Of a stretch of 64,000 bases of DNA, positions 18,867 to 55,877 are shown piece after piece. A program made the translations under genes and the position numbers. How positions within the stretch are numbered: the stretch's first letter is position 1; each line of letters starts with the position of its first letter. A model generated the notes under the pieces. That model ran no database searches. It saw nothing but the letters and a program-made list of their open reading frames with translations, and had not been told where the DNA came from. This DNA is from Gammaproteobacteria bacterium (GTDB lineage Bacteria > Pseudomonadota > Gammaproteobacteria > Thiotrichales > Thiotrichaceae). The stretch lies in the NCBI GenBank assembly GCA_018822845.1, contig JAHJJD010000120.1:1-64000 (forward strand), read 5' to 3'.

Positions 18867-18872
18867 TTAACG

Positions 18873-20677: not shown

Positions 20678-20713
20678 TTGCGCCTCCAGCAAATGTGTGG
20701 ACTGACCCCCTTA

Positions 20714-23677: not shown

Positions 23678-25555
23678 ATGAGAGGTTTATCCAGTAAACG
23701 ATGGTGGCTGCTATTGATTGCAGCGCTATCACTGCCTTTCGGCCCTGCCTTTGCCAACGAGTCCGTGACCAAGGCAATAGCCGATGCCAACAACTGGGCT
23801 ATCTGGGGGGGCAATTACGCGGGCAACCGCTACAGCAGCCTTAACCAGATCAACAAGGACAATGCGTCCATGTTGCAGCCTGCGTGGACTTTTTCAACCG
23901 GCGTATTGCGCGGGCATGAAGGCGGGCCGATGGTGATCGGTGACACCATGTACGTGCATACGCCCTTCCCGAACAAGGTCTTCGCCATCAACCTCAAGGA
24001 TCAGACCATCAAGTGGAAATACGAGCCGGAACAAAGTGCTGACACCATTCCGGTCATGTGTTGCGACACCGTGAACCGGGGTCTGGCTTATGCTGACGGA
24101 ATGATTTTCCTGCAACAGGCCGACACCACTCTGGTGGCGCTGAATGCCGAAGATGGCAAAGTGATCTGGAGCATCAAGAATGGCGACCCCAAGAAAGGCG
24201 AAACCAACACCAACGCACCCGTGGTGATCAAGGACAAGATCATTACCGGTATCAGCGGCGGTGAATACGGGGTGCGCGGCTTCCTGGCAGCCTACAACAT
24301 CAAGGATGGCAGCCCTGCGTGGAAATGCTTCAGTACCGGGCCGGATGATGAAATGTGCATGGATCCGGCCAAAACCATGAGCTGGATGGGTACTGATAAA
24401 GGCTTGCAACCGGTCGGCAAGGATTCCAGCCTGACTAGCTGGAAAGGCGATCAGTGGAAAATCGGTGGTGGCCCTACCTGGGGCTGGTTCTCCTACGACC
24501 CGGCGCTGAACCTGATCTACTACGGCACTGGCAACCCCGGTACCTGGAACCCGGTAGCACGCCCCGGCGACAACAAATGGTCGATGGCCATCGTCGCGCG
24601 TGACGCCGACACCGGCATGGCCAAATGGGTCTACCAGATGACGCCGCATGACGAATGGGATTACGACGGCGTTAATGAAATGCAACTGGCCGACCTGAAA
24701 GTCAACGGCAAGGACGTCAAGGCGCTGGTGCATTTCGACCGTAACGGGTTCGCCTACACCCTGAACCGTGAAACTGGCGAAGTACTGGTAGCCGCCAAGT
24801 ATGACCCGGCAGTCAACTGGGCAACGAATATCGACATGAAGACAGGTCGTCCCGTCGTGGTTGCCGAATACAGCACCGACAAGAACGGGGTGGATGTCAA
24901 CACCAAGAACGTATGCCCGGCAGCCCTTGGCACCAAGGACCAGCAGCCTTCCGCATTCTCGCCGCAAACCGGCCTGTTCTACGTGCCCACCAACCATGTG
25001 TGCATGGACTATGAGCCGTATGCCATCGACTACGTTGCTGGCCAGCCATATGTCGGCGCTACCCTGAGCATGTTCCCGGCAGGCAAGGTGACCGGTGACG
25101 GCAGCACCAACCTGGGCAATTTCATCGCCTGGGATGCTGACAAGGGTGAAATCAAGTGGTCGATTCCTGAACCCTTCTCCGTCTGGAGCGGTGCTTTGGC
25201 AACCGCCGGGGATGTGGTGTTCTACGGCACACTGGAAGGCTACCTGAAAGCGATCGACGCCCAAACCGGCAAGGAGCTTTACCGCTTCAAGACACCCTCC
25301 GGGATCATCGGCAATATCAACACCTGGTCGTTTGACGGCAAGCAGTATGTTGGCGTGCTGTCCGGCATCGGTGGCTGGGCAGGCATCGGCATGGCTGCCG
25401 GGCTGACTGGCGATACCGAAGGGTTGGGTGCTGTCGGCGCTTACAAGAGCCTGAGCGATTTCACCCAGTTGGGTGGCGTGCTCACGGTCTTCAGCCTGCC
25501 TGACAGCGCCATGAAAACCGCAGCAACCAGTGACAAAGCCAAGAGCAACAACTGA
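23678..25555 (+). CDS. xoxF: Lanthanide-dependent PQQ methanol dehydrogenase XoxF
   Basis: The protein has 625 residues; the signal peptide ends at PAFA. It is an eight-bladed quinoprotein with the vicinal disulfide Cys128-Cys129. Catalytic Asp328 and extra Asp330 are in [11 protein letters not shown]. That second Asp coordinates a lanthanide and replaces the Ala of calcium-type MxaF. Other metal ligands fit Glu196 (GGEYG) and Asn286 (GTGNPG). It oxidises methanol to formaldehyde or formate in the periplasm. GGAGGAG precedes the ATG. No mxaI-like small subunit is present. Confidence 0.95.
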
Positions 25556-27059: not shown

Positions 27060-28814
27060 ATGAAAGCAGAGCGTTCATTCCGACAATTGTTGCTGGCGCT
27101 GGCCGTCGGCTGCGCACTCAACACCACCGCCCTGATGGCCGCCGTCACCGATGATGACATCGCCAACGACGCCACCACTACCAACGATGTGGTGAGCTAT
27201 GGCATGGGTCTGCAAGGCCAACGTTTCAGCCCACTGGACAAACTGAATGCCGACACCGTCAAAAACCTCGTACCGGCTTTCGTGCTGTCTTACGGGGATG
27301 AAAAGCAGCGCGGCCAGGAAGCCCAGCCGCTGGTGCATAACGGCAAGATTTTCGTCACTGCATCCTATTCCCGCGCGTTCGCCGCCGATGCCAAGACTGG
27401 TGAAGAGCTGTGGCAGTATAACCACCGCCTGCCGGACGGCATCCTGCCTTGTTGCGACGTGGTAAACCGTGGTGGCGCGCTGTACGACAACCTGTTCATT
27501 TTCTCCACGCTTGATGCGCAACTGGTCGCGCTGGACCAGGATACTGGCAAGGTTGTGTGGAAAGAAAAAATGGAAGACTTCAAAGCTGGTTATTCCAACA
27601 CCGCCGCACCGATCGTGGTGAAAGGTCTGGTTATTACCGGTGTTTCCGGTGGTGAATTCGGTATCGTCGGCAAGGTCGAAGCACGCGATGCCAAAACCGG
27701 CAAACTGGTCTGGTCACGCCCCACCGTAGAAGGCCACATGGGTACCCTGGACGGCAAGGACAACGGCATTACCGGCGAAACCAACAAGAGCTGGCCAGGC
27801 GACCTGTGGAAAACCGGCGGCGCGGCCACCTGGCTGGGCGGTACTTACGACCCTGACACCGACAGCCTGTTCTTCGGCACCGGTAACCCGGCTCCATGGA
27901 ATTCACACCTGCGCCCTGGCGACAACCTGTATTCCTCATCCCTGCTGGCGATTGATCCAGCCACTGGCAAGATCAAATGGCATTACCAGTGGACTCCGCA
28001 TGACGGTTGGGACTTCGACGGTGTAAACGAATTCGTTTCCTTCGACCTGAAGCAGGAAGATGGCACAGTCATCAAGGCTGGCGGCCATGCCGACCGTAAC
28101 GGCTTCTTCTACGTCCTGGACCGTACCAACGGCAAGCTGATCAATGCGACACCATTCGTCAACCAGATCACTTGGGCGAAGGGCATCGACCTGAAGACTG
28201 GCCGCCCCGAATACATTGACGACAACCGTCCGGGCGCGCCAGAAGGCGCTGAAAAAGGCAAATCCGTCTTCTCGGCACCTTCCTTCCTCGGTGGCAAGAA
28301 CTGGATGCCAATGGCCTACAACCCCAACACCGACCTGTTCTACGTGCCTGCCAACGAATGGGGCATGGACATCTGGAATGAGCCAATCACCTACAAGAAA
28401 GGCGCGGCTTACCTTGGCGCTGGCTTTACCATCAAGCCACTGAACGAGGACTACATCGGCGCACTGCGCGCCATTGACCCGAAAACCGGCAAGATCGTGT
28501 GGGAAGCCAAAAACAACGCACCGCTGTGGGGCGGCGTGCTGACCACCGCTGGCAATCTGGTCTTTACCGGTACGCCGGAAGGCTACCTGAAAGCGTATGA
28601 CGCCAAAACAGGTGAAGAACTGTGGAAATTCCAGACCGGTTCCGGCGTGGTCGGCTGCCCAACCACCTGGGAACAGGACGGTGAGCAGTTCGTAGCAGTC
28701 CCATCCGGCTGGGGTGGCGCAGTACCGCTGTGGGGTGGCGATGTCGCCGAGCGCGTCAAGCATCTCAACCAGGGTGGTAGCCTGTGGGTGTTCAAACTTC
28801 CCAAAACTTCCTGA
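27060..28814 (+). CDS. Lanthanide-type PQQ alcohol dehydrogenase (PedH/ExaA-like)
   Basis: The protein has 584 residues with a signal peptide ending near LMAA. It has a vicinal disulfide Cys131-Cys132 ([10 protein letters not shown]) and catalytic Asp318 with Asp320 in [11 protein letters not shown]. The second Asp marks the lanthanide-dependent type, as in PedH of Pseudomonas putida; calcium-type PedE/ExaA has Ser there. Glu199 and Asn276 fit the other ligands. It probably oxidises ethanol and other short alcohols to aldehydes. It differs clearly from the XoxF at 23678, being shorter, with W-rich loops of the ADH I type. It heads a long operon. Confidence 0.92.
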
Positions 28815-33479: not shown

Positions 33480-34382
33480 ATGATTCTGAGTGACGCCTAT
33501 TTACAGCTAGTGGATCGTATCCGGGAAGCCGTTCCCCTGCCTGCCGTGCGCAGCCTCTACCTGCCTTCCCTGCAACAGGATGAATTCCGTGACGAATTTG
33601 GCTTCGTCTTTCTGGAAACAGGCGATGTCGGTGCGTTCTACGTCAGTCTGGAAGACAGCCTGCCTGCGCTATGGGAGGAATTTCCCGCTCCCCAACAGGT
33701 CAAGCTTCCCCTCAAAACAGCGCTGGACAGACTGGGGGGAAAGGAGCCAGCTTCACGCGCACTCGGATTAGGCGCATTCAACGCGCTGAGCCAGTACATC
33801 ATGCGCATCGCCGGGTATGAGCCGGAAAATCACAGCAATCACGACAAACGCATCAAGCCGCCGCCACCAGTCGATACGGTTGGCATGGTCGGCTATTTCT
33901 GCCCAATTGTTGAGCGGCTGACCAGCCAGGACATTAGGGTGATGGTGCTGGAATTGCTTCCCGAACGGGTTACACCGCATCCGCTGGTGCAAGTCACCAC
34001 CGACCCGGAGGATCTGGCGATGTGCGATCAGGTGCTGTGCACCGCTTCCACCCTGATCAACGGCACGCTGGACGATATTCTGGCCGCCTGCGGCAATGTG
34101 CCCGACTTCAGCCTGATCGGCCCCAGTGCGGGCGGCTTGCCGGATGTGGTGTTTTCAAGAGGCGTGCAGGAAGTCGGCGCGACCGCTTTCCCCGACAGTG
34201 CAATGTTGCAGGACTTGCTGGCACGGGGGGAATCCTGGGGCAAAGCCGGGCGCAAATACCGCATCCGCCAGGAAGAATACCCCGGCGTGGAAGCGCTGCT
34301 GGAACGGGCGGCAGCAACGTTACCGCATGAACAGCGCGGTCAGTCAAACTCTTGCCGGGGAATCCCTAACCAGCATCAGTGA
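33480..34382 (+). CDS. DUF364 / putative heavy-metal chelation domain protein
   Basis: The protein has 300 residues with no signal peptide. The C-terminal half holds the DUF364 signature (CDQVLCTASTLINGT, LIGPSAGGLPDVVFSRGVQEVGAT). DUF364 has a Rossmann-like fold and is annotated as a possible heavy-metal chelation domain; the N-terminal half fits the companion DUF4213. It is the last gene of the lanthanide-type dehydrogenase operon (15 bases after the CXXCW gene), which makes a role in metal handling worth considering. It runs into the convergent EamA gene by seven bases. Confidence 0.75.
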   Translation: MILSDAYLQLVDRIREAVPLPAVRSLYLPSLQQDEFRDEFGFVFLETGDVGAFYVSLEDSLPALWEEFPAPQQVKLPLKTALDRLGGKEPASRALGLGAFNALSQYIMRIAGYEPENHSNHDKRIKPPPPVDTVGMVGYFCPIVERLTSQDIRVMVLELLPERVTPHPLVQVTTDPEDLAMCDQVLCTASTLINGTLDDILAACGNVPDFSLIGPSAGGLPDVVFSRGVQEVGATAFPDSAMLQDLLARGESWGKAGRKYRIRQEEYPGVEALLERAAATLPHEQRGQSNSCRGIPNQHQ

Positions 34383-35443
34383 TCATGCTGATGGTGAGCA
34401 TCCGGAAAGTGGGCATGGCTATGCTCCATCGGCTCATGCTGGTGCCGGTGGCTATGCCGCGTACCAGGCGCAACCGGGAAATCATGCCCATGCTGGTGGT
34501 GTTCATCATGGGTATGTTCATGCTCGTGTTCCAGCGCCGAATGCTGGTGTTCGTGGGAATGGTGCTCGGTCAGGTGCAGCCACACGCCAATGGCCATCAG
34601 CGCGCCCGCCAACAACAGCGGCAAAGTAACAGGTTCATCCAGCAATACAATTGCCAACGCTGCGCCAAAGAATGGCGCGACCGAGAAATAAGCACCGGTA
34701 CGCGCCGTTCCCAGATGCCGCAACCCCACGACAAACAAGGTCAGGCTGACCCCGTAGGCAAACAACCCCAGCAGCAAGGCTCCCGCCAGCACCGGCAATC
34801 CGGGCAGGGATGCGCCCAGCAGTAACGCCAGCAACAGGTTGACCGCGCCTGCCACCAAGCCTTTGACTCCGGCAATCCAGGTCGCATCATTCAATGACAC
34901 TTTACGGGTCAGGTTATTATCCAGCCCCCAGGCAAAACACGCGCCCAAAATAGCCAGTGCTGGCAACACCTCGCCAAAGCGCGCCTCCCCCGGCCAGCTC
35001 AGCAGCAGCGCACCCGCTACAATGACGAACATGCCCAGCGCCACCCGCCGGTCAACGTTTTCACGGAAGGCAAACCAGGCCAGCAACGCGGTGAAGACAC
35101 CTTCCGCATTGAGCAACAGGGAAGCGCCCGAGGCTGGCATATTGGCCAACCCCGCCATCAGCAGCACTGGCGCAACCACCCCACCCGCCAGCACCGCCCC
35201 CGCAAACCAGATGGTTTCATGCCGGGGCAAGCTGACGGATGGGGCGCGGCTGAGCCAGCGGTACAGCATCAAGCCCAGCCCGGAACCCAGATACAACAAA
35301 CCCGCCAGCATCCACGGGCTGGCCCCATCCAACAGCAGTTTGGCCAGCGGCGTGCTGGCCCCGAACAGGATGGCTGCGCCCAGCGCCGCCGGAATGCCCG
35401 GTTGCATCAGGCGATCATGTGTATGTTGTTTAGTGATGCCCAC
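34376..35443 (-). CDS. EamA/DMT-family transporter with a His-rich tail
   Basis: The protein has 355 residues from GTG 35443 (AAGGGG upstream). Ten membrane segments form two EamA repeats in residues 15-290. The remaining 60 residues are cytosolic or periplasmic and extremely rich in His and Glu (HEHEHTHDEHHQHGHD and similar). Such tails bind divalent or trivalent metals. DMT transporters export or exchange small metabolites; the tail suggests a metal-linked role. It lies next to the MerR/CDF metal cluster and overlaps the GDCCVxC gene by 14 bases, so they form one transcript. Confidence 0.85.
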   Translation of the reverse strand: MGITKQHTHDRLMQPGIPAALGAAILFGASTPLAKLLLDGASPWMLAGLLYLGSGLGLMLYRWLSRAPSVSLPRHETIWFAGAVLAGGVVAPVLLMAGLANMPASGASLLLNAEGVFTALLAWFAFRENVDRRVALGMFVIVAGALLLSWPGEARFGEVLPALAILGACFAWGLDNNLTRKVSLNDATWIAGVKGLVAGAVNLLLALLLGASLPGLPVLAGALLLGLFAYGVSLTLFVVGLRHLGTARTGAYFSVAPFFGAALAIVLLDEPVTLPLLLAGALMAIGVWLHLTEHHSHEHQHSALEHEHEHTHDEHHQHGHDFPVAPGTRHSHRHQHEPMEHSHAHFPDAHHQHDH

Positions 35444-35648
35444 AACAACCCCTTTCCTGCTGAATCGGCGGACATTTCACCGTCCCGAACGAACAAAACA
35501 CACAGCAATCTCCCGGATTGGGGCGCAACAGAGTTTTGCACTGTTCGCATTCATAGAAAAACTGGCAGGCGTCAGTGGGCATGGTTTCCTGCTTGGCAAA
35601 ACCGCAGTGCGGGCAGGTCAGGACAGATTCCAGAATAACCTCAGTCAT
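35430..35648 (-). CDS. GDCCVxC-domain small thiol protein
   Basis: The protein has 72 residues from ATG 35648 (GAGGAG ten bases upstream; a GTG two codons earlier is possible). It has ten cysteines: CPHCG, YECEQCKT, GDCCVFCSFGTVKC and a C-terminal CCGHH. The GDCCVxC block defines a small family of presumed thiol or metal-binding proteins that often accompany mercury or zinc resistance genes. It overlaps the CDF gene upstream. Confidence 0.85.
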   Translation of the reverse strand: MTEVILESVLTCPHCGFAKQETMPTDACQFFYECEQCKTLLRPNPGDCCVFCSFGTVKCPPIQQERGCCGHH

Positions 35649-36312
35649 GCGCACGAAACTCCTCTATTTTTACAATGGAGGGAATGATGGCAGTATGGCG
35701 CAAATCCTGTTGGGCATACCCCCACATCTGCCACGCTCCGGTTAACGCCAGTGTTGCCATCACCCCCGCCACTATCAGGTCAGGCAGGCCGGAGGCTGTC
35801 CCAAAGACACCGACTGCCGCCAGCACCACCGCTATATTGCCCAGGGCATCATTGCGTGAGCAAATCCACACGCTGCGCATATTGCTGTCACCCTCACGGT
35901 AAACGTACAACATGGCGGCAACTGCCGCATTAGCCGCCAGCGCCAGCAGTGCAACACTGCCCATGGTCATGGCGTCCGGCAGGTTGCCTGTCCATAGCCC
36001 CCAGCCAGTACGCCCCAGCACCCACACCCCAAACGCCGCCATCGTTGCGGCTTTCAATAGCGAGGCTTTGGCGCGGATAGCCAGCCCCATACCCAGCACC
36101 CACAAGCTGATACCGTAGTTGGCCGCATCGCCGAAAAAGTCGAGCGAATCCGCCAACAGGGAAGCCGATTGCGCCCATACCCCGAACAGCATTTCCACCC
36201 CAAACATGGCGGCATTGATCAGCAAAGCCAGACATAGAATCAGGCGGTAACGCCCGTGCGGGGTTTTGGCTTCGGTGCCGCAACTGTGGTTACAACCGCA
36301 TTGTGCGCCCAT
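35641..36312 (-). CDS. Cation diffusion facilitator-type metal transporter, short form
   Basis: The protein has 223 residues and six membrane segments. The CDF metal site is recognisable as SLLADSLDFFGDAANY in helix 2 and WICSRNDALGNIAV in helix 5. The C-terminal cytosolic domain of larger CDF proteins is missing, as in many short homologues. The N-terminus carries a Cys/His patch (QCGCNHSCGTE). Its promoter is a MerR-type operator and the regulator is divergent, so it is most likely a metal exporter induced by that metal. Confidence 0.88.
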   Translation of the reverse strand: MGAQCGCNHSCGTEAKTPHGRYRLILCLALLINAAMFGVEMLFGVWAQSASLLADSLDFFGDAANYGISLWVLGMGLAIRAKASLLKAATMAAFGVWVLGRTGWGLWTGNLPDAMTMGSVALLALAANAAVAAMLYVYREGDSNMRSVWICSRNDALGNIAVVLAAVGVFGTASGLPDLIVAGVMATLALTGAWQMWGYAQQDLRHTAIIPSIVKIEEFRAHD

Positions 36313-36341
36313 ACATTTCTCCCAACTGTTGTATTGGAGTT

Positions 36342-36372
36342 ATGCTAAACCCTGTAGCCGCTACAGGGTCAA
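36342..36372 (-). promoter_or_regulatory. MerR-type promoter with 19-bp spacer and palindromic operator
   Basis: On the minus strand TTGACC (36372-36367) and TAGCAT (36347-36342) are 19 bp apart, the long spacer typical of MerR-activated promoters. The spacer region holds a perfect palindrome ACCCTGTAG-CCG-CTACAGGGT (36349-36369). It drives the CDF/GDCCVxC/EamA genes. Confidence 0.85.
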
Positions 36373-36375
36373 GCC

Positions 36376-36807
36376 ATGCCAACAACACTGACGATTGGAA
36401 AACTGGGTCAAGCATCCGGGGTGAATATTGAAACCATCCGCTATTACGAACGCAACGGCTTGCTGCCTTCGCCTACCCGTTCCAGCAGCGGTTATCGGCA
36501 TTACCGTGAGGACGATGTAAAGCGGCTGCGCTTTATCCGGCGTGGGCGTGAACTGGGCTTTGGTTTGGAGGAAATCCGCTCCCTGCTGCAATTGACCGAT
36601 CAGCCACAACAGCCCTGTGATACCGCCGACCAACTGGTGCAAAAACACATGGCGGAAGTGGATGCCAGAATCCGGGATTTACAGGCAATCCGGGCGGCAT
36701 TGGGGCAACTTGCCGGATGCCAAAGCCAGACAGCAGAGCATTGCCGTTTGCTGGAAGCGCTGGAGGAGCGGGATTGCTGCATTAAATCGGGGCACGTCCC
36801 CGATTAA
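36376..36807 (+). CDS. MerR-family metal-responsive regulator
   Basis: The protein has 143 residues. N-terminal winged helix (LTIGKLGQASGVNIETIRYY, GYRHYREDDVKRLRFI), a long dimerisation helix, then Cys residues in QQPCDTAD, LAGCQSQ and EHCRLLE. Their spacing resembles the Hg-sensing MerR rather than CueR, but the metal cannot be fixed from sequence. No ribosome site is visible at ATG 36376, which lies just past the operator. The last codons lie within a hairpin-forming repeat. Confidence 0.9.
   Translation: MPTTLTIGKLGQASGVNIETIRYYERNGLLPSPTRSSSGYRHYREDDVKRLRFIRRGRELGFGLEEIRSLLQLTDQPQQPCDTADQLVQKHMAEVDARIRDLQAIRAALGQLAGCQSQTAEHCRLLEALEERDCCIKSGHVPD
36785..36805. terminator. Hairpin at the end of the merR-like gene
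   Basis: AATCGGGG (36785-36792) and CCCCGATT (36798-36805) form a perfect 8-bp stem overlapping the stop codon. It sits between two converging genes and may serve both; no T-run follows. Confidence 0.45.
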
Positions 36808-36820
36808 CCCACCATGGTGG

Positions 36821-37888
36821 CTAGTTTGTCCGCGTGCCCCTGCTGTCCAGACGCTGGTAATCCCCTTTCACGTTCAGGGTGATCTCAACCGGAAAGTCGT
36901 TGTCATTCTTCCAGTACCAGCCATGCGTACCCTCAAAGCCTGCGGTCAGGCTGCCGCTGGATTGGGCATCCATGGCCGTCTTGAAACTCTCGAAATAGCC
37001 GCTGGTGTCTCCCTTGGGTTCCCCATGAAAATCAAAGTACACAATCCCCTTGTCCAGCCGCCAGTTGAAATCAAATGCGCCGCCCTTGGCCAGCATCAGC
37101 TTGTACTCGGTTTCCCCATGGGCGGGAATATTCACGGTAATCGTATCCTGCCAGTCAGCCGCCTGTGGCATCGGGTTTGCTGCTTGCACCACGGAAACTA
37201 CCCCGCCACCACCACTTGCGCCCTCATTGAGGTAACCGTGAATCTGCACGCCGAACAGGGCTATTCCCGCCAGTATCAGAGTATGGTTGGCCAGTTTGCT
37301 GAAAGCAGGGAATGCCTGGCTTTTACGCAAGGCGTTGATCACCAGCAACATAACGGCCAGAGCCACCACCTGCCCCAGTTCGATACCGATATTGAATGAG
37401 ATGATATTCAGCAGCAGCTCATCCTGATTCAGCGGTAACTGTTGCAGGCGGGTAGACAAACCCAGACCGTGTATCAAGCCCAGGCCAAAGATCATGGCCA
37501 GCATGTTGGGTGGGTTGATTTTCAGGTGTTTCCTGAACCAGTCGAGATTGCTGACGGCAATGTAGCAAACGCTCAGGGCGATCACGGCGTCAATCAGGAA
37601 ATAGTTGATCCTGACGGCGTTAAACGTGGCAATGATCAGCGTGATACTGTGACCCAGCGTGAACGCTGTAATGTATTTCACGATCTCCCTGAATCTGGTC
37701 AGGAAGAAAACCACGCCAAACACAAAGGCCAGATGATCATAGCCCGACAGCATATGGGTAGCCCCGATCCAGATATAGCGCAGATTACCGCCTTCGATGA
37801 TGATCTGCTTCTCGGCCTCCGACATGCCGTGCCCAAATGCCTGACCTGCCAGCAAGACAAGCATGATGGCCATGAAATACCGCTTCAT
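36821..37888 (-). CDS. HupE/UreJ-family membrane protein with an extra C-terminal domain
   Basis: The protein has 355 residues from ATG 37888 (a start seven codons earlier is possible). A signal-like first segment precedes GHGMSEAEK. Then come the family motif THMLSGYDHLAFVFG, HSITL and GLIHGLG, the histidines expected to bind metal. About seven membrane segments reach residue 240. The last 120 residues form an extracytoplasmic beta-rich domain ending in a Trp-rich segment (GTHGWYWKNDND). HupE/UreJ proteins import nickel or cobalt. It is last in the beta-propeller operon, so transport of the dehydrogenase metal is a possibility. Confidence 0.8.
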   Translation of the reverse strand: MKRYFMAIMLVLLAGQAFGHGMSEAEKQIIIEGGNLRYIWIGATHMLSGYDHLAFVFGVVFFLTRFREIVKYITAFTLGHSITLIIATFNAVRINYFLIDAVIALSVCYIAVSNLDWFRKHLKINPPNMLAMIFGLGLIHGLGLSTRLQQLPLNQDELLLNIISFNIGIELGQVVALAVMLLVINALRKSQAFPAFSKLANHTLILAGIALFGVQIHGYLNEGASGGGGVVSVVQAANPMPQAADWQDTITVNIPAHGETEYKLMLAKGGAFDFNWRLDKGIVYFDFHGEPKGDTSGYFESFKTAMDAQSSGSLTAGFEGTHGWYWKNDNDFPVEITLNVKGDYQRLDSRGTRTN

Positions 37889-37899
37889 TTTAACTTCCA

Positions 37900-38700
37900 T
37901 CAATCCCATTCGTAGTTCAGGCGCAGCAGCAGTGCACGGTTACCGTCGGTATCGCCGACCCCGAAAGCAACCGCAGCACCCACATCCAGCCCCTTGGCCG
38001 GTTTCCAGTACACGCCCGGTGTTACCCAGCTTTCCTCATCGCTCCAGTTGTATTCGCCAGTGAAAACATGCCTGCCGACTGCATGGAAAGCAGCCAGATT
38101 GGCAAAATTTTCGTCTCCAGCATCAGCCATTTCCCTGCCCACTTGCAGCGATGCCTGGGTATTGCCGGTTGTATCCAGATCGCGGGCCAGGGTGATGTGC
38201 ACCGTATCGCTGTCGCTGGCTTCCTCATCTTCATCTGCGATTACATCGTCGTCACCGTTGGCGAATTCGTGTTCATAACCCACAGCAACACTGTTGGGTG
38301 AACCGCCGATGTGCATCCAGCTTTTTTTCAAGCCCAGTTCGGTATTGCCTTGCCCATCCAGCGTTGCCTCATCTGCATCACCGGGTTTGATTTTGATGTA
38401 GGGCGTATGCTCCAGTTCCACCTGCAAACTATCGGTAATGCCGTATTCCAGCCCGGTGGTCAGGGTAGTTACCTTACCCGCATCGCTTTTGATGTAGTCG
38501 GCACCGATGGAAACCTGCCATTCGCCCTGTTCCTGTGGAAATACCGAATCGGACTGGAAGAAATCATTCAGTGGCTGCGGCGTTTCCCCTGCCTCGTCTA
38601 CGTCGTCATCCGCCCAGAGTGGCGTATTCCACAAGCCAAGTGCGGCAAGAATGGCGGCTGTCACAGCCACACGGGGGAAAAGTGCCGGTTTGGTTCGCAT
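37900..38700 (-). CDS. Outer-membrane beta-barrel protein with an acidic loop
   Basis: The protein has 266 residues with a signal peptide to PLWA. After an acidic start (DDDVDEAGE), amphipathic strands typical of MetA/phenol-pathway-type barrels follow (WQVSIGADYIKSD, LEYGITDSLQVELEHTPYI) up to the C-terminal strand LLLRLNYEWD. One surface loop is very acidic (GDDDVIADEDEEASDSD) and could bind cations. It lies between the binding-protein gene (nine-base gap) and the HupE-like gene. Confidence 0.75.
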   Translation of the reverse strand: MRTKPALFPRVAVTAAILAALGLWNTPLWADDDVDEAGETPQPLNDFFQSDSVFPQEQGEWQVSIGADYIKSDAGKVTTLTTGLEYGITDSLQVELEHTPYIKIKPGDADEATLDGQGNTELGLKKSWMHIGGSPNSVAVGYEHEFANGDDDVIADEDEEASDSDTVHITLARDLDTTGNTQASLQVGREMADAGDENFANLAAFHAVGRHVFTGEYNWSDEESWVTPGVYWKPAKGLDVGAAVAFGVGDTDGNRALLLRLNYEWD

Positions 38701-38709: not shown

Positions 38710-39984
38710 TTAAAACTTGCAGTTGCTGTCACGCTGGTCGAAACCCAGCGTATCGAGATTGTTGGTTTGATGCAGGAAGCCTTCCAGCGGCAGGCGTTCC
38801 ACCACCCAGTTATGTGTTCCCAGCAGGATCGGCTGGCGCAACTGGCGATCCCACGGGCGGAAATTCAGCCGCTTGCCTTTGAAACCGTCGAGAATAAACG
38901 CATCACTCAGCAAGTGATCGCGCAATTTGGCAAAGTCGGTGCTGGCGCTGCGTTGCACCGCTTCGGCAATCGCTTTCACTGCCAGCCATGCTGCCCAGTC
39001 CACGTCCCGCATCGGGCGACCCGCCTGTTTCTCGAAACGCTTTTCGAGTTGCGGTGCACCGTGGCGTTCCCATGCCCAGTGCCATGCCATTGCTGCCAAG
39101 CCTTCTGAACCGACCACCAATTGCGGTTTGACGCTTTGGTAAGGCACGCCACGGGCAAATTCACCGTCGGTATCCGCCACGAAAATCACGTCGTAATCGG
39201 CTTCACTGGTGAGCAGGGCCACATTGTTCTGGCTGCGGTGGCGCGGGTCGTTGCTGAGTTCAAAGATGCGCTTTGCCACGATCTTCACGCCGTAACGTTT
39301 GGCGGAACGCTCGAACGATTCGGTCAGTTGCACATCTTCCGGCGATGCTCCCGTGAGCAACAAGGCTTTGCCCCATTTGCGCACGGTCAGGTATTGCGTC
39401 AGGGCATCGCTCAACATGGCGTAGTTGGGAATTACATGTAGCAAATGCGCCTGACATTGCGCCTGCCGCAAGCTGTTTTCGCGTGCGGAAATATTGAAGA
39501 GCAGGATGTCCTTACCCTTGGTGGCAGCGGCAAGTTCAGCCACCGTGGCAGCGGGTGCATCCACCACGAAAAAATGCACGCCTTGCTTGCTGAGGGTATC
39601 AACCTGTGCCAGCAAATCGGCGTTATCCTTGCCCTTGACTTGTTGCAGCTTGAATTCTGCGCCAACGGCTGATCCGTGGAATTTGCTTTCCTTCAAGGCC
39701 ACTTGCGCCCCGGCATAAGGCCGACCTAGCGGCTGTGTCAGGTATTGGGCAAAGGTATGCTTGCTGCTGTAACGCGGGTCGTTTTGCAATTGCAGGTAGC
39801 CGATGGTGAAGTCTGCTGCCATTGCCGCATTGCCCAGTAACATCACCAAGAGGAAGAAAATCCCCCTCAATCCCCCTTTTGCAAAGGGGGAGGCAAGACA
39901 GCTCACCCGATGACCAAACCCGTACTGTCTGGAGGGTTCCCCCCTTTGCAAAAGGGGGGACAGGGGGGATTTTCTTCTAATCAT
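38710..39984 (-). CDS. ABC-type substrate-binding protein of the PQQ alcohol system, N-terminus altered by a repeat
   Basis: The protein has 424 residues as read. The fold is the branched-chain amino acid type binding protein (TIGR03863-like) found with PQQ alcohol dehydrogenases: DFTIGYLQLQNDPRYS, FVVDAPAATV, LFNISARENSLR. Related Ped/Lut ABC systems are needed for lanthanide-dependent growth in Pseudomonas and Methylobacterium. The first 45 or so codons come from a palindromic repeat (SPLSPLLQRGE, ASPFAKGGLRGI); the natural signal peptide FFLLVMLLGNAAMA begins after it. The gene overlaps the upstream beta-propeller gene by eight bases. Confidence 0.85.
   Translation of the reverse strand: MIRRKSPLSPLLQRGEPSRQYGFGHRVSCLASPFAKGGLRGIFFLLVMLLGNAAMAADFTIGYLQLQNDPRYSSKHTFAQYLTQPLGRPYAGAQVALKESKFHGSAVGAEFKLQQVKGKDNADLLAQVDTLSKQGVHFFVVDAPAATVAELAAATKGKDILLFNISARENSLRQAQCQAHLLHVIPNYAMLSDALTQYLTVRKWGKALLLTGASPEDVQLTESFERSAKRYGVKIVAKRIFELSNDPRHRSQNNVALLTSEADYDVIFVADTDGEFARGVPYQSVKPQLVVGSEGLAAMAWHWAWERHGAPQLEKRFEKQAGRPMRDVDWAAWLAVKAIAEAVQRSASTDFAKLRDHLLSDAFILDGFKGKRLNFRPWDRQLRQPILLGTHNWVVERLPLEGFLHQTNNLDTLGFDQRDSNCKF
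39856..39974. repeat. Palindromic repeat element, family B, inside a gene
   Basis: 119 bp bounded by GAAAATCCCCC (39856-39866) and GGGGGATTTTC (39964-39974). Each end contains a hairpin, CCCCCTTTTGCAAAGGGGG on one side and CCCCCCTTTGCAAAAGGGGG on the other. Its reading frame on the minus strand gives the SPLSPLLQRGE and SPFAKGGLRGIF peptides seen at this kind of repeat. It covers the 5' end of the binding-protein gene and reaches the stop of the propeller gene. Confidence 0.85.
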
Positions 39985-41089
39985 CGATCAGCACCGTATG
40001 TGGTACACGCGCAACCGGTACCGATTTGGTGACTTTGCGGCTGGCAACATCCACCACCGATATGTCATCACTCAGGCCATTGGCAACATACAGGGTGCTG
40101 TTGTCACGGTTGAGCACCACGTTCCAGGCGCGTTCACCGACCAGCACGTAATCCTGCACTTCGTGGCTGGCAACATCGACGAAAGCAATGTGGTTAGAGC
40201 CGCCCAAACCTACAACCACGGTTTTGCCGTCACGGGTCATGGTAATGCCGACCGGGGTTACGTCTTCCGCGCGGAAACCTTTCGGCAGGAACTTGATGCT
40301 TTGGGTCACTTTGTTGGTGGCAGGGTCAATGATGGTGACTTCGCCGCTGAGTTCGTTGGTGACCCATAGTTCTTTCTGGTCAGGTGTCAGGGCGAAACGG
40401 CGCGGGCGGTTGCCTACCACGATATTGGCCTTCATCTCGCCGCTGGCGGTGTCCACCACATGTACGGTGTTGGCGACTTCGGAGGTGACGTAAGCGGTTT
40501 TGCCGTCGGGGCTGAGCAGGATGCCTTCCGGTTCTTCGCCCACTTCGACGGTTTTCAGGCCGGGGATGGCGGCAGCATCGCCGTCTTCCTCTTCTTCGTC
40601 GTCAGCGTTGTCATCTTCGGCTTCGCTGGTTTCACCCGGAGGGGCAGGTTCAGCCACGCTCAGGTCGGGCTTTTCGCCGCGTTTGGCAAAGTATTCGTCC
40701 AGATTGAGGATACCGAGCGCACCGTCATCTTCCAGTGAGATGTATAGGGTTTTGCCATCAGCACTGATGTCGAACAGTTCGGGGTCTTCGATACCGGCAA
40801 TGCGGTCAACCAGTTCCAGCTTGGCTACGTCGATCACGTCAATCGCAGCACCATCGCCACAGGCTGCATAAATCTTGCTGTGGTCGGGGCTGAATTGCAG
40901 GTGGCGGGGGCGGGCAGCCGTGCCAATGCGTTTCACCACTTCAAAGGTTTTGGCATCGAGTACGCTGATATTGTTGTCTTTTTCGCTGCTGACGAAGATG
41001 TAGCCAGTGTCTTTGGCGAAAGCGGGGCTGGCAGCCAGCAGGCTGATCGACAGCAATGGCAGGGCGAATAGCGGGCGCAGATATTTCAC
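39977..41089 (-). CDS. PQQ-associated YVTN beta-propeller protein
   Basis: The protein has 370 residues from GTG 41089, picked because AAGGAGGAG ends four bases before it; the open frame extends nine codons further. The signal peptide ends at PAFA. Seven YVTN-type repeats follow (GYIFVSSEKDNNISVLDAKT, KIYAACGDGAAIDVIDV, ELWVTNELSGEVTIIDPAT, LYVANGLSDDISVVDVAS). An acidic insertion rich in Asp and Glu lies near residues 160-180. It belongs with the TIGR03866 family linked to PQQ alcohol ABC systems. It may bind metal or the dehydrogenase. It heads a four-gene operon ending at the HupE-like gene. Confidence 0.9.
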   Translation of the reverse strand: MKYLRPLFALPLLSISLLAASPAFAKDTGYIFVSSEKDNNISVLDAKTFEVVKRIGTAARPRHLQFSPDHSKIYAACGDGAAIDVIDVAKLELVDRIAGIEDPELFDISADGKTLYISLEDDGALGILNLDEYFAKRGEKPDLSVAEPAPPGETSEAEDDNADDEEEEDGDAAAIPGLKTVEVGEEPEGILLSPDGKTAYVTSEVANTVHVVDTASGEMKANIVVGNRPRRFALTPDQKELWVTNELSGEVTIIDPATNKVTQSIKFLPKGFRAEDVTPVGITMTRDGKTVVVGLGGSNHIAFVDVASHEVQDYVLVGERAWNVVLNRDNSTLYVANGLSDDISVVDVASRKVTKSVPVARVPHTVLIDD

Positions 41090-41122
41090 GATCTCCTCCT
41101 TCTCAATGAACCTCATACCGTG

Positions 41123-41181: not shown

Positions 41182-41889
41182 CTAGCGGAATTTTATTAAT
41201 TCCAGCGTCATCTTGCCGCCCTTATAGACATCCGTATCCAGCGGCTCGTCACGCTCCAGCTTGACCAAGCCGACACCGGGCGCATACCACTCACGGGTGG
41301 TCACCTGTATCTGGCTGTCGCCAGTGCGCGGGTCGGCGTACAAGGTCAGTTCCGCTTGCCCTTCGACCAGCACGCAATGGCTGAAACTTCCGGCGGGCAC
41401 AGCCACGGTTTCGTCCACCCCCACCACCGTGTAGGTCATGGGAAAGCGCAAGCCCTGGGCGTAAAGGTTGTGGCCGCCTTCATACACCCGCTCGATCAGG
41501 TAAGGCATGGTCACCAGCGACCAGGTTTTGCCTTTGGATTGTGCGGTGGGCAGCGGCAACACCATGCGTGGCAGCGCATCCGGCTGCGGCGCAAGTTCCA
41601 CCAGCGTGCGTTTGGCGATGCGGTACAAACCGTCGTCCCGGCGACTGATGTAATAATCCGTGCCATCACTGGTGCGGCGCACGCTGGTGGCAGCGCCCTT
41701 GAACGTTGCCTCGCCCACATTTTCGATGCTGAATGGCCTGATTTCGGAATGGTGCGGTTGCTCGACGCTGACCCGGTATTCCCAGCGCAGCCCTTCATCC
41801 AGCGGGAAATAGTCGTCGGCGGCGGGCTTGCCGCAGGCGTGCAGCAGCGGCAGGCACAATAGGATGAAAAGAATCCGTTTCATGCTCAT
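41182..41889 (-). CDS. Lipoprotein of the ExbB/ExbD-like unit, unknown function
   Basis: The protein has 235 residues with lipobox LLHAC19. The mature part starts GKPAADDYFPLDEGLRWEYR and looks like an all-beta lipocalin-like domain ending TREWYAPGVGLVKLER. Such domains bind lipids or small ligands, but I cannot name the family. ATGA overlap with the 172-residue gene upstream shows translational coupling. It is last in the unit that starts at 43661. Confidence 0.75.
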   Translation of the reverse strand: MSMKRILFILLCLPLLHACGKPAADDYFPLDEGLRWEYRVSVEQPHHSEIRPFSIENVGEATFKGAATSVRRTSDGTDYYISRRDDGLYRIAKRTLVELAPQPDALPRMVLPLPTAQSKGKTWSLVTMPYLIERVYEGGHNLYAQGLRFPMTYTVVGVDETVAVPAGSFSHCVLVEGQAELTLYADPRTGDSQIQVTTREWYAPGVGLVKLERDEPLDTDVYKGGKMTLELIKFR

Positions 41890-42404
41890 TTCTCCGGCAA
41901 AGCCGGGTCAGGCAGGTTGCTGAACTTGAGCTTGTCTTGCACTTCGCCCAGTTGCCGCACGCTGACCGGCGCACCATCCCGCGCCGCCTTGTTGCCGCCT
42001 TTCGTGCCAATCTGCACATTGCCGTTACGCTGGTTGCGCAAGGCGTCTTCCAGCGCGGAATGCACTTCGCGCTCGTAGGCGATTTCATAGGCGCGCGGCT
42101 CATCCGCCGGTTTGCTGCCTTGCAGGTTGGAAGCCCACACGAATATGCGCCCCTGCGTACCCTTTTCCTGATCCGGCTCCTCAATCACCGAGGCGTGCAG
42201 CAGGAATTTGTCCGGCAGTTCCACCCGGCTCGGCCAGCCCTGCACCTGTTTCCAGCCCTGATAACTGATGAGGTAAAAACCGCCCGCCAGCGCCACCAGC
42301 CCCAACTTGAACAGCCAGTGCAGCCGCCCGTGGGTGATGACCAACACCAGCATCGCCAGCAGGAAAATGTACGCCAACACCAGCAAGGTCAGCATTTCGG
42401 TCAT
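41886..42404 (-). CDS. Inner-membrane protein of the ExbB/ExbD-like unit, unknown function
   Basis: The protein has 172 residues. Two membrane segments at about 4-22 and 30-46 are followed by a soluble domain, probably periplasmic, with LPDKFLLHASVIEEPDQEKG and RAYEIAYEREVHSALEDAL. No family is recognised. It overlaps both neighbours by four bases. It probably forms a complex with the ExbB- and ExbD-like proteins. Confidence 0.75.
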   Translation of the reverse strand: MTEMLTLLVLAYIFLLAMLVLVITHGRLHWLFKLGLVALAGGFYLISYQGWKQVQGWPSRVELPDKFLLHASVIEEPDQEKGTQGRIFVWASNLQGSKPADEPRAYEIAYEREVHSALEDALRNQRNGNVQIGTKGGNKAARDGAPVSVRQLGEVQDKLKFSNLPDPALPEK

Positions 42405-43009
42405 AGTTTTCCTCCCAGAACGATGGATTTCTGTAGTGTGTTGATATTGGTGACCTTGCCGCCGGGGGTAATGCTGAAACGCACAGCGGTGCGTTCCTCG
42501 CCTGCGCGTTCCAGCGTGGTGGTGGCGTAATGCAGCACCTTCAGGGTCGGGTTCACTTCCGCCACATACACCGTGACCGGCACGGCGCGCAGGGTCTGGC
42601 TGCGGTAGTAATGCACATTGACGATGTATTCGCCGGGTGGCCGCCCACGGATGGTGACGATTTCCTGATTGAGCGGGTTGATGATTTCCTTGCCGTCGAT
42701 CAGTTGCATGTCGTTGACCAAACCACGGTCATCGCGATCCAGATGCATCAGGCCGTCTTGCGCGCGTTTGAACCATATCAGTCGGCCTTCTGGCCCTTCC
42801 ACCCAGGTGTCGATGTCGTCGGGGCTGTTGTCCGGCCAGCTCACCGTAATCATGAATTCGGCCTTGGGGTTGATGATGCCGCTTTTGGCGGGCGGGTGCA
42901 TGAGCAACAGGCTGATGAAAAACAGGAAGGCAAAGGTCAGCAGGGCATTGAATAACAGATCGGTAAACGGGTCGACATCGAAACTGCCTTGCCGTTTAAA
43001 CATCGCCAT
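42401..43009 (-). CDS. ExbD/TolR-like protein with an enlarged periplasmic domain
   Basis: The protein has 202 residues. The N-terminus resembles ExbD/TolR: a short cytoplasmic part with FDVDPFTDLLFNALLTFAFLF, where an Asp stands just before and at the start of the single membrane helix as in proton-driven ExbD. The periplasmic part (about 155 residues) is larger and different. It looks like a beta domain (MITVSWPDNSPDDIDTWVEG, GEYIVNVHYYRSQ) of the YfaP/DUF2135 kind, not the peptidoglycan-binding ExbD fold. It overlaps the ExbB-like gene by 14 bases. Confidence 0.8.
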   Translation of the reverse strand: MAMFKRQGSFDVDPFTDLLFNALLTFAFLFFISLLLMHPPAKSGIINPKAEFMITVSWPDNSPDDIDTWVEGPEGRLIWFKRAQDGLMHLDRDDRGLVNDMQLIDGKEIINPLNQEIVTIRGRPPGEYIVNVHYYRSQTLRAVPVTVYVAEVNPTLKVLHYATTTLERAGEERTAVRFSITPGGKVTNINTLQKSIVLGGKL

Positions 43010-43661
43010 AGGCCGCCCCGGCGAATAATTTGCGCTCGCTGGCGTGCACCGCTTCCACCACCAGCCTGTCCGCCGTGCGATCCAGCATCAGGTATTGCAG
43101 CCCCAGCAACATGCTGCCGACCAGCCCGATGATGGTGGTGTTGAGGGCGATCTTCATACCCTGGGTCATTTGCTGCATCAGGGTTTGCACTTGCTCGATG
43201 TCGAGCGATTCGATCTGCGTCATCGACCCCAGCATGATGACGAAACCCACCACCGTACCCAGCAGCCCCAGCTTGATCAGCAAACCGGTGACAAACCAGC
43301 CGACCTGATGCTGGCCGCGCAATTGTTCACCCAGCAATTCCGCCATCAACTGCTTTTCATGTGCATTGGGAATGGCCTGTAATTCGCGTAAGTAGCCGCT
43401 CATCAGCGCACTTTCATCCGGCTTGTTTCCGGCTTGCCAGTGCTGCAAGGCATGGGTCTGGTGCGCCAGGAACAGGCAGCGATAGCCGCAATGCAGGCAG
43501 GTCAGCAGGAACAGCGCCACCATCAGCGGCGACAGCCAGGTGGTGTCGGTGGCAAACATGACAGACAAGATGCCGTTATCCCACAGCAACACCAACCCCA
43601 TCAGCAGCAGGCCGAAAAACCACAGCCAGTACAGGCATAACAGCCACGGGGTTTTATTCAT
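42996..43661 (-). CDS. MotA/TolQ/ExbB-like proton channel protein
   Basis: The protein has 221 residues with GGGAGG before ATG 43661. Membrane segments lie at about 5-28, 42-62, 121-143 and 170-190. The conserved ExbB/TolQ block (LLIKLGLLGTVVGFVIML, MKIALNTTIIGLVGSMLLGL) forms the ion pathway with the ExbD-like Asp. It heads a four-gene unit controlled by a CCAACC promoter. No TonB or TonB-dependent receptor is encoded in the window, so its output is unknown. Confidence 0.85.
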   Translation of the reverse strand: MNKTPWLLCLYWLWFFGLLLMGLVLLWDNGILSVMFATDTTWLSPLMVALFLLTCLHCGYRCLFLAHQTHALQHWQAGNKPDESALMSGYLRELQAIPNAHEKQLMAELLGEQLRGQHQVGWFVTGLLIKLGLLGTVVGFVIMLGSMTQIESLDIEQVQTLMQQMTQGMKIALNTTIIGLVGSMLLGLQYLMLDRTADRLVVEAVHASERKLFAGAAYGDV

Positions 43662-43709: not shown

Positions 43710-43770
43710 GTTTTACCCGGACAGGGTTGGCGAAAGGTTGGTGGATAATCCTGCCGGATTGCGCTATCAA
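43710..43770. promoter_or_regulatory. Divergent CCAACC promoter: ExbB-like unit (-) and PedC-like permease (+)
   Basis: On the minus strand CCAACC at 43741-43736 and 43730-43725 (spacer TTTCG), then TAAAAC at 43715-43710 after 9 bp. On the plus strand the same repeat reads GGTTGG; 23 bp after it stands TATCAA at 43765-43770. The same spacing is found at the 45588 site, which supports use in both directions. Confidence 0.7.
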
Positions 43771-43795: not shown

Positions 43796-44599
43796 ATGGC
43801 CACACGGCATTTGCCCGCATTACTGGCGATTAGTCAGCGCGAAACCGTCAAGTTCCTGCATCAGCGCGGACGCCTGCTGTCGGCGCTGGTGCGCCCGGCC
43901 TTATGGCTAATCGTGTTCGCCGCCGGTTTCCAGAATGTGTTCGGCGTGTCGATCATTCCGCCTTACGAGACGTACATCGAATACCAGGTCTACGTGGTGC
44001 CCGGCCTGCTGGGCATGGTGCTGCTGTTCAACGGCATGCAGTCCTCGCTGGCGATGGTGTATGACCGCGAAATGGGCCTGATGCGGCTGCTGCTGATTGC
44101 GCCACAACCTCGCTGGTTCCTGCTGTTCAGCAAACTGGTGGCAGGAACCGTGCTGTCGGTGTTGCAGGCGTATGCCTTCCTCGCCCTGTGCGCCGTGTTC
44201 GGGGTCGACATTCCGTGGATGGGATGGTTGTACGCCCTGCCCGCGCTGGTGCTGGGCGGGCTGATGCTGGGCGCGTTGGGGCTGCTGCTGTCGGTTTCCA
44301 TCCGCCAACTGGAAAACTTTGCGGGCACCATGAACTTCGTCATTTTCCCCATGTTTTTCCTCTCCAGTGCACTGTATCCGCTGTGGAAATTGCAGGAATC
44401 GGGCGCAACCATCGTGCACCTGCTGGCGCAATACAACCCGTTTACGCATGTGGTGGAAATGATCCGTTTTGCCCTGTACGGCCAATTCAACCTCCTCTCT
44501 TCACTGGCCGTACTGGGCGCTTTGATTGTGTTTTTCCTGCTGGCGGTGTGGGGGTATGACCCGCAACATGGGTTGGTGCGCAAGGCGCGACAGGCTTGA
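43796..44599 (+). CDS. ABC-2 type permease of the PQQ alcohol system (PedC-like)
   Basis: The protein has 267 residues and six membrane segments, with GGGAGGAGG before the ATG. The ABC-2 signature is visible (RPALWLIVFAAGFQNVF, LGALGLLLSVSIRQLENFAGTMNFVIFPMFFLSSALYP in parts, YNPFTHVVEMIRFALYG). It matches the permease family (TIGR03861) tied to PQQ alcohol dehydrogenases, whose P. putida system PedA1A2BC is needed for rare-earth-dependent growth. Its ATPase partner is probably the gene at 49082, five kilobases away. Confidence 0.88.
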   Translation: MATRHLPALLAISQRETVKFLHQRGRLLSALVRPALWLIVFAAGFQNVFGVSIIPPYETYIEYQVYVVPGLLGMVLLFNGMQSSLAMVYDREMGLMRLLLIAPQPRWFLLFSKLVAGTVLSVLQAYAFLALCAVFGVDIPWMGWLYALPALVLGGLMLGALGLLLSVSIRQLENFAGTMNFVIFPMFFLSSALYPLWKLQESGATIVHLLAQYNPFTHVVEMIRFALYGQFNLLSSLAVLGALIVFFLLAVWGYDPQHGLVRKARQA

Positions 44600-53517: not shown

Positions 53518-54000
53518 ATGTTAATGAAATCGCTTTACATCAATCCGGAAAAATGTACCGGCTGTCTGCAATGCGAAATGGCCTGCTCGTTTGAAAATGA
53601 AGGAGTGTTTAATCCGGCCCGCTCGCGCATCAAGGTTTTCACCTTCCATGATGCAGGACGCTTTGTGCCTTACACCTGTACGCAGTGCGATGAAGCGTGG
53701 TGCATGAAAGCCTGCCCGGTTGAGGCCATCGTGCTCAATGCTGCAACTGGCTCGAAAGACATCATCAACGACCGCTGCGTGGGTTGCAAGGTTTGCACCA
53801 TCGCCTGCCCGTTCGGCACGGTAAATTACAATTCGGCCAGCGGCAAGGTCATCAAGTGCGACCTGTGTGGTGGCAACCCGCAGTGCGCGCAAGCCTGCCC
53901 GACCGGCGCGATTACCTACATCGACGCTGATGCTACCGGCCTGGAGCGCATGCGCCTGTGGGCCACCAAAACCGATACCGCACATCATGCAGCAGCCTGA
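53518..54000 (+). CDS. aorA: Aldehyde oxidoreductase iron-sulfur subunit AorA
   Basis: The protein has 160 residues with GAGGAGG before the ATG. Four [4Fe-4S] cluster motifs are visible: CTGCLQCEMAC, CTQCDEAWCMKACP, CVGCKVCTIACP and CDLCGGNPQCAQACP. It is the electron-transfer subunit that links AorB to AorC in the multi-subunit enzyme described from Aromatoleum. Order and spacing to the next two genes match that operon. Confidence 0.9.
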   Translation: MLMKSLYINPEKCTGCLQCEMACSFENEGVFNPARSRIKVFTFHDAGRFVPYTCTQCDEAWCMKACPVEAIVLNAATGSKDIINDRCVGCKVCTIACPFGTVNYNSASGKVIKCDLCGGNPQCAQACPTGAITYIDADATGLERMRLWATKTDTAHHAAA

Positions 54001-54013
54001 GGAGGATTAAGAC

Positions 54014-55870: not shown

Positions 55871-55877
55871 GGTTGGC

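Follow-up and report, generated by a model that had tools for sequence, protein, structure and literature searches.

A predicted proton-driven motor operon with an unusual ExbD-position protein among the PQQ alcohol oxidation genes of a Thiotrichaceae bacterium

Four overlapping genes behind a regulon box

We have examined a group of four genes at positions 41182-43661 of a 64,000-nucleotide stretch of DNA (the window; contig JAHJJD010000120.1, positions 1 to 64,000) from a gammaproteobacterium of the Thiotrichaceae, where they lie among genes for alcohol oxidation dependent on pyrroloquinoline quinone (PQQ). An earlier reading of the sequence alone (the original prediction) had described a TolQ/ExbB-like channel, an ExbD-like protein with a large beta domain in its periplasmic part, a two-helix membrane protein and a lipoprotein, together proposed as a possible new proton-driven envelope machine. 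The four genes are present as minus-strand open reading frames (ORFs; gene calls are longest-ORF calls), each starting with ATG, with successive overlaps of 14, 4 and 4 bases, and because of these overlaps they almost certainly form one operon. As detailed below, the unit is a real and conserved branch of a known motor kind, undescribed as far as our searches go. Its parts are:

42996..43661, minus strand: gene 1, ExbB/TolQ/MotA-type channel subunit, 221 amino acids (aa), four predicted transmembrane (TM) segments (PF01618, alignment A4, hydropathy)
42401..43009, minus strand: gene 2, protein at the ExbD position, 202 aa, TM helix with Asp17 and, in its model, a beta sandwich resembling TerD (alignment A1, AlphaFold, VIA-align)
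41886..42404, minus strand: gene 3, two-TM protein of 172 aa, third core subunit (alignment A3, model)
41182..41889, minus strand: gene 4, DUF3108-like lipoprotein, 235 aa (Pfam PF21347, lipobox)
43725..43741, minus strand: regulatory box CCAACCTTTCGCCAACC, given in the sense of the motor genes

Elsewhere, the genome (4.0 Mb in 130 contigs, completeness 99%) encodes three proteins that pass the ExbD cut-off and four other PF01618 proteins above theirs, so the unit is extra to the ordinary motors.

A CCAACC promoter had been proposed between the operon and the divergent pedC gene, and a genuine box, GGTTGGCGAAAGGTTGG, does stand there (43725-43741). It is separated by 63 bp from the exbB-like ATG and by 54 bp from pedC, and its orientation suits the motor genes rather than pedC. 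The pattern GGTTGG-N5-GGTTGG occurs in 13 exact copies genome-wide, 11 of which lie within the window (9859-50811), all 11 with AAA ahead of the second half. Read on the coding strand as CCAACC-N5-CCAACC, it precedes both PQQ dehydrogenase genes, the genes for a beta-propeller protein, a porin and a cytochrome c, pqqB, pqqC and the motor operon, while the boxes at 9859, 45588 and 50795 have no called gene clearly behind them in that orientation. The expectation that a common control signal stands before the motor operon and the PQQ/alcohol genes was thus confirmed, since the box is the same. Having an exact copy before it, the motor operon is assigned to the PQQ/ped regulon; binding of a regulator there is predicted, and the motor genes would be co-expressed with the rest. 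The window boxes, GGTTGGNNAAAGGTTGG, are direct repeats 11 bp apart in the PQQ/alcohol regulon, and an extra site with one mismatch lies at 53432. Among the loci of relatives that were scanned, one (L037) has the window's box sequence beside its motor unit and two (L025 and L026) have one box each before the dehydrogenase gene; the others had no exact box.

Subunits of the predicted motor

Gene 1 is a MotA_ExbB protein by Pfam (PF01618, 37.3 bits; gathering cut-off 22.9), in agreement with the channel originally proposed. Conserved glycines and threonines of the pore helices are a hallmark of MotA, TolQ and ExbB. Gene 1 carries the pore motifs KLGLLGTVVGF and GMKIALNTTIIGL, and in alignment A4 residues G132, G135, G139 and T176 were invariant (15/15), with T136 and T175 present in at least 90% of the 15 sequences. 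Hydropathy analysis gave four hydrophobic segments for gene 1 and for five of seven other channels (three in L117, five in L160). ExbB and TolQ have three TM helices, and by hydropathy gene 1 falls outside that subgroup. A PDB sequence search with the channel returned no match at E 0.01. The nearest NCBIfam match was ZorA_2, a likeness to the ZorAB pair of Zorya that was drawn by the channel only; its 30.7 bits are far under the cut-off of 100, and a Zorya defence system was rejected for this reason.

In the AlphaFold model of gene 2 (predicted local distance difference test, pLDDT, 69) a single TM helix spans residues 14-37 and strands run from 50 to 180, as expected for the claimed ExbD-position protein with a beta periplasmic domain. 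The helix starts with DPFTDLLFN and an all-beta domain follows. Like ExbD and TolR, the protein has one TM helix with an aspartate (D17), whose proton carriage is predicted. Family models recognise little of it: the Pfam ExbD model (PF02472) gave no match at E<=0.5 with the protein, nor at the gene's place in a genome search at E<=1, and no Pfam or NCBIfam model exceeded its cut-off. DUF2135 (PF09906) reached 18.8 bits, below its gathering cut-off of 22, and matched 4 of 17 relatives at E<=1. A PDB sequence search returned a single match (E 0.45) and a plasmid search four Azospirillum matches at 30% identity.

Conservation within the family is high. W58, D65, D67, R92, D93, D94, G96, E116 and E172 were identical in 91/91 gene 2 sequences, and the beta domain therefore holds six invariant acidic residues (D65, D67, D93, D94, E116 and E172). 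The TM aspartate D17 is kept in 67 of 84 close relatives and in all seven distant ones. The 17 close relatives that lack it, 11 of them within the PQQ-linked clade described below, count against the motor reading proposed below; the proton path in them must differ. These proteins (L107, L108, L111, L115, L116, L118 and L154-L164) start with FDPxxxxLFK-like sequences, not DPFTDLLFN, and several of the loci L107, L108, L111, L115, L116 and L118 have two copies of the two-TM gene.

Among solved folds, the one nearest to the periplasmic domain of gene 2 is that of TerD, a family of tellurite resistance and calcium binding. When the model was compared with VIA-align, TerD chain 3ibz ranked first (Z 9.5, root-mean-square deviation 3.6, 130 residues) and chains of TerD or a homologue ranked fifth and sixth (2qz7, Z 8.0; 2kxt, Z 7.9), one TerD-titled chain among these three being titled for calcium binding. 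Rank 3 was 2qng (Z 8.4), titled as of unknown function, which we take to be TerD-like; ranks 2 and 4 were a radial-spoke chain (Z 8.9) and a GLPD-SCP2 model (Z 8.0), and rank 7 had Z 6.3. By eye, an acidic DxD, a second acidic stretch and a later Glu also recall TerD. Unlike TerD, the domain here stands behind a TM helix and is probably periplasmic. Several results weigh against kinship. According to the aligner's own caution, models with no clear match often reach a best Z of 7-8. Foldseek with the same model, of middling confidence, found nothing below E 1e-3; PF02342 was absent from the Pfam matches (E<=1) of 17 gene 2 family members; hhalign gave gene 2 versus TerD a probability of about 3% or less; and pairwise scores with TerD fell among those of the controls, with two control families above them. 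A relationship to TerD by sequence was rejected in three comparisons: with 17 TerD proteins the hhalign probability was 0.4%, below nine controls; with 42 TerD proteins TerD ranked 2 of 47 in local mode (3%), in an alignment away from the acidic motif, and 17 of 47 in global mode; and in shuffle tests with 13 of the 42, four TerD groups came third, fourth, fifth and eighth of 30, behind SoxYZ and one more control. The likeness seems to be a resemblance of folds only, and a metal-binding axle is a reasoned guess from the model, not a result.

The model of gene 3 (pLDDT 68.5) contains two long helices, 2-25 and 30-54, as anticipated for a two-helix membrane protein, and a C-terminal domain that, judging from the charges, probably lies in the periplasm. 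No known fold matched it clearly, the best being an unrelated pair of helices at Z 7.2. Gene 4 has the lipobox LHAC expected of the lipoprotein and scored 28.3 bits with DUF3108_like (PF21347), barely over the cut-off of 27. In Escherichia coli, an Asp after the lipobox Cys leads to retention in the inner membrane. That residue varies among relatives of gene 4 and is Asp in three of them (L025, L026 and L027), and for this reason the lipoprotein is not clearly an outer-membrane one.

Overall, the unit shares with ExbBD and TolQR a PF01618 channel with GLLGTVxGF and TT motifs and, in the window, a partner with one TM helix and an Asp. It differs from them by its four hydrophobic segments, by a partner outside PF02472 whose periplasmic model is nearest TerD, by the additional two-TM subunit, and in that no TonB or TolA was found among the window proteins scanned, which were part of the window's ORFs. 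Because of the pore motifs and the TM aspartate, we would expect proton-coupled work of the ExbBD/TolQR kind.

Distribution and the link to PQQ genes

The unit is no chance arrangement, since relatives of gene 2 were found in 22/95, 41/370, 25/397 and 42/289 genomes of overlapping samples. Of these, profile A1, built on gene 2, gave the 41 among 370 gammaproteobacterial genomes (36 at E below 1e-70, hereafter strong carriers), the 25 among 397 drawn from the phylum and the 42 among 289 in the class of genome G455, which was taken for Alphaproteobacteria because several loci share the gene order of L032-L036. We collected 91 neighbourhoods with an ExbD-like gene (up to about 10 kb either side, contig ends limiting), in which an ExbB-like gene was called in 86, a two-TM gene in 79 and a lipoprotein gene in 24. 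A tree of 83 of these sequences omits the distant L123-L126 and L165-L167 as well as L094, which was missed by the inclusion pattern and has SoxYZ/SoxH and lipoprotein genes; L038 was excluded as a duplicate of L027. The window fell in a 40-member clade with support of 93/89.

This clade is the one linked to PQQ chemistry. With 'PQQ genes' defined as the BLAST clusters of dehydrogenase, SoxYZ, SoxH or PqqE, such genes were present in 24 of the 40 clade loci versus 3 of the 43 outside (p 2.6e-7), and in 18 of 23 clade loci versus the same 3/43 when two alphaproteobacterial groups were left out. Lipoprotein genes were found mostly in the PQQ-linked clade, and across the tree 17 of 23 loci with a lipoprotein had PQQ genes, compared with 10 of 60 loci without one. 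At the level of genomes, the dehydrogenase family TIGR03075 was present in 28 of the 36 strong gammaproteobacterial carriers versus 38 of 334 other genomes (p 4e-17; one of the 28, G251, is a fragment below the family cut-off). In the window's own family (Thiothrix), a window-type unit (at least 72% identity) occurs in 8 of 60 genomes, all eight with TIGR03075, versus 11 of the 52 others (p 3e-5). These genome counts were tallied by hand, as was that for a second, paralogous unit of the family (41-47% identity), which showed no tie, TIGR03075 being present in 5 of its 13 genomes. Counting families, 16 of 19 carrier families versus 24 of about 148 others had the dehydrogenase (p ~4e-9; hand counts, 167 families assumed). 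Related genomes are not independent, so all of these p-values overstate the significance. Within the window's clade, the unit is strongly tied to PQQ alcohol oxidation.

Several observations weigh on the other side. The clade support of 93/89 is short of the tool's star, the tree was midpoint-rooted and drew long-branch warnings, and the two alphaproteobacterial groups may, as the tool warns, be falsely joined to the clade. Sixteen of the 40 clade loci had no PQQ gene in the stretch examined, seven alphaproteobacterial loci have the lipoprotein without PQQ genes, and 38 of the 66 genomes with TIGR03075 are not strong carriers. Among 22 further strong loci in the class of G455, 10 had dehydrogenase or ped genes, 7 the lipoprotein only and 5 neither. 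TIGR03075 was absent from 8 of the 36 strong gammaproteobacterial carriers, none of which had PqqE over the cut-off (G226 gave a sub-threshold match). With those eight and the 38 non-carriers, a role of the unit as PQQ exporter is unlikely.

The original prediction had tied the unit to PQQ genes and named, as counter-evidence, homologous units occurring mainly without them. This is what was found for the family as a whole, since 43 of the 83 sequences lie outside the clade and three of these have PQQ genes; it was not found for the window's clade, where the tie held in 24 of 40 loci. The core of the motor branch is thus wider than PQQ chemistry. In line with this breadth, the unit could be a general Tol-like motor that maintains the envelope, protecting or remodelling it, and that is carried with the alcohol genes by chance. 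Outside the clade the core trio stands with YkuD L,D-transpeptidase, DUF302 and VWA-FHA proteins (Pfam assignments, one representative each), and the trio is also present in four genomes of about 1 Mb that have neither TIGR03075 nor PqqE. Such a motor, however, leaves unexplained the repeated adjacency to PQQ/ped genes in one clade and the box common to the motor and PQQ genes in the window's genome, and we regard it as unlikely.

Other arrangements were seen among the relatives. A cassette in the order L,D-transpeptidase, DUF302 protein, ExbB, ExbD-like, two-TM and VWA-FHA protein, incomplete in some loci, occurs in L087, L088, L091, L093, L095, L098, L099, L107, L108, L111, L115, L116 and L118, near genes that we presume to be tilS, accA, dnaE and rnhB. 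In L050-L056 and L109 a paralogous trio lies beside a gene for a protein of about 600 aa, which we take to be DUF255/thioredoxin-like; in the Thiothrix family this DUF255-linked unit occurs in genomes both with and without PQQ enzymes. Among distant relatives in the class of G455 (L234-L241, E about 1e-23 to 1e-27), six of the eight loci combine ExbB and ExbD-like genes with a different third gene, whose product has about 170 aa; on gene content this is a second architecture.

Genomic setting and possible function

The surroundings of the motor operon in the window include:

43796..44599, plus strand: PedC permease of a PedA1A2BC-type ATP-binding cassette transporter, divergent from the motor operon (TIGR03861, 374 bits; cut-off 241)
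39977..41116, minus strand: PQQ-associated beta-propeller protein, downstream of the motor unit (TIGR03866), with its own box at 41139
27060..28814, plus strand: PQQ alcohol dehydrogenase with WDFD motif (TIGR03075), box at 26937
23678..25555, plus strand: PQQ alcohol dehydrogenase with WDYD motif (TIGR03075), box at 23561
10184-11479: porin (Porin_4), preceded by a box

The score of the permease upholds the divergent PedC-like gene that had been reported. A gene for a ped-type substrate-binding protein also lies downstream of the motor unit with the beta-propeller gene, and the window further holds SoxYZ-, SoxH- and MoxJ-like genes and those for PqqB, PqqC and PqqE. Similar neighbours recur in relatives. 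In Thiothrix eikelboomii (L026), a dehydrogenase gene, the genes to SoxH, another ORF and the four motor genes share one strand, no gap between them exceeding 79 bp, and a box stands 95 bp ahead of the dehydrogenase gene; in L122 the PqqE gene is the next one upstream of the exbB-like gene on the same strand; and in the alphaproteobacterial L221 the genes for ExbB, ExbD, the two-TM protein, a 153-aa ORF, the beta-propeller, the substrate-binding protein and PedC follow in one direction. The setting resembles the ped cluster of Pseudomonas putida, which has PedC, the substrate-binding protein, the beta-propeller, SoxYZ/SoxH and PQQ dehydrogenases; it differs in its motor genes, ExbB and MotA receiving no mention in a review of that cluster (PMC12997753).

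Three further gene groups of the window were noted. One, at 53518-57128, recurs near the motor unit in two relatives (L027 and L039) and contains an aldehyde-ferredoxin-oxidoreductase-like gene (54014-55870, under the family cut-off), as if alcohol and aldehyde oxidation genes travelled together in these three loci. At 12704-20744, inside the PQQ region, lie kdpA, a kdpB-like P-type ATPase gene, kdpD and a gene for an OmpR-type regulator, with a box at the border (20804). This KdpE-type regulator (12704-13405) clustered by its receiver domain with NarL-like regulators of other loci, a match that we do not claim. Near the ped genes, positions 33480-37909 hold a possible metal-handling run that includes a DUF364 'heavy-metal chelation' gene, a sub-cut-off CDF-type match, a MerR-family regulator and a HupE/UreJ protein.

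Both window dehydrogenases carry WDxD, which we take to be a lanthanide mark. The original prediction had pictured a machine that might carry lanthanide, PQQ or a chelator through the outer membrane. Lanthanide specificity did not survive comparison and was rejected as a general rule: the dehydrogenases adjoining the alphaproteobacterial units L032-L036 have WDYT rather than WDxD, and there are carriers that have no PQQ enzymes. An energiser of the outer membrane, acting through the lipoprotein and the porin or a barrel protein, would fit the box ahead of the porin gene, the presence of the lipoprotein in most linked loci of the clade, and the lanthanide route across the outer membrane of P. 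putida, which the available text of the review states to be unresolved, with no LutH homologue (PMC12997753). It is nevertheless very unlikely in our view. Neither a TonB-like linker nor a TonB-dependent receptor was found among the scanned part of the window's proteins, to which the search was limited, and within that scope the absence of TonB and receptor noted originally holds. In addition, the Asp after the lipobox Cys of the three relatives would keep the lipoprotein in the inner membrane, the partner dehydrogenases of L032-L036 are of the WDYT type, and the genome has three canonical ExbD-family proteins. A lanthanide-specific outer-membrane importer is not supported. What stands of the new proton-driven envelope machine is an ExbB-type unit with an unusual partner at the ExbD position; lanthanide specificity and import across the outer membrane lack support.

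We consider it fairly likely that, in the window's clade, this new motor branch works for the PQQ alcohol regulon. The products of the four genes would assemble into a proton-driven motor of the ExbBD/TolQR/MotAB kind. Its ring would be built from gene 1 and its axle from gene 2, with Asp17 as proton carrier, and gene 3 would supply a further membrane subunit, one domain of which would lie in the periplasm. The periplasmic part of the axle would be a TerD-like sandwich instead of the ExbD/TolR fold, and its invariant acidic cluster may bind Ca2+ (or Ln3+ in cells that use it). In the window's clade the motor would have been taken into the service of PQQ-dependent alcohol oxidation, with a lipoprotein of its own and the regulon box of the alcohol genes. 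There it would most likely drive some periplasmic step of the quinoprotein system, for instance metal supply to, or maturation of, the dehydrogenase, although that particular step, taken alone, is a tentative proposal and rather unlikely.

A more specific form, a proton-driven metal-loading machine whose TerD-like axle cycles Ca2+ or Ln3+ into or out of PQQ alcohol dehydrogenases, is quite improbable. Proton flow would then play the part that is ascribed to MoxR-VWA ATPases in the insertion of Ca2+, and sister clades would apply the metal-gated motor to peptidoglycan and other envelope targets. In the accessible part of one paper, MoxR-MoxC/L pairs, of the MoxR-VWA type, are said to aid Ca2+ insertion into methanol dehydrogenase (PMC12657314). 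These mxa calcium-insertion genes serve as an analogy only: in both cases accessory machinery accompanies a quinoprotein dehydrogenase, with no homology shown, and the energy would here come from proton flow, not ATP.

Alternatively, the unit could be a signalling device, whose metal-binding axle would sense periplasmic Ca or Ln or the proton gradient and tune the regulon. Divergent sensor-kinase and response-regulator genes adjoin the unit in the large-genome f204 loci, and a protein with an FHA domain accompanies it in another clade. The conserved channel motifs, in turn, favour force or ion flow over sensing alone; we hold the signalling reading to be very unlikely.

Expression data from the literature offer leads. 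In Methylomicrobium alcaliphilum two genes called MotA/TolQ/ExbB channel (MEALZ_3990-3991), candidate members of the window's motor family, drop with the mxa genes when La replaces Ca, according to the part of the report available (PMC6277846). In a lanthanide-accumulating strain of the Beijerinckiaceae, exbB and exbD, there called TonB machinery, fall with Nd (PMC10848612, available in part). A survey of MotAB reports, for non-flagellar homologues, various domains of unknown kind as well as compact B subunits that bind peptidoglycan, and its available text mentions neither a TerD-like B subunit nor PQQ (PMC12505986). Our literature searches found no paper pairing DUF2135 with ExbD, or TerD with lanthanide, and, among the titles and openings of abstracts listed, no description of the four-gene motor unit.

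Few kinds of proton-driven envelope motor are known, and a further branch in Alpha- and Gammaproteobacteria (in the GTDB sense) would widen the list and extend the range of periplasmic work open to the proton gradient. Its association with PQQ-dependent alcohol oxidation makes a connection between quinoproteins and the handling of metals accessible to testing.

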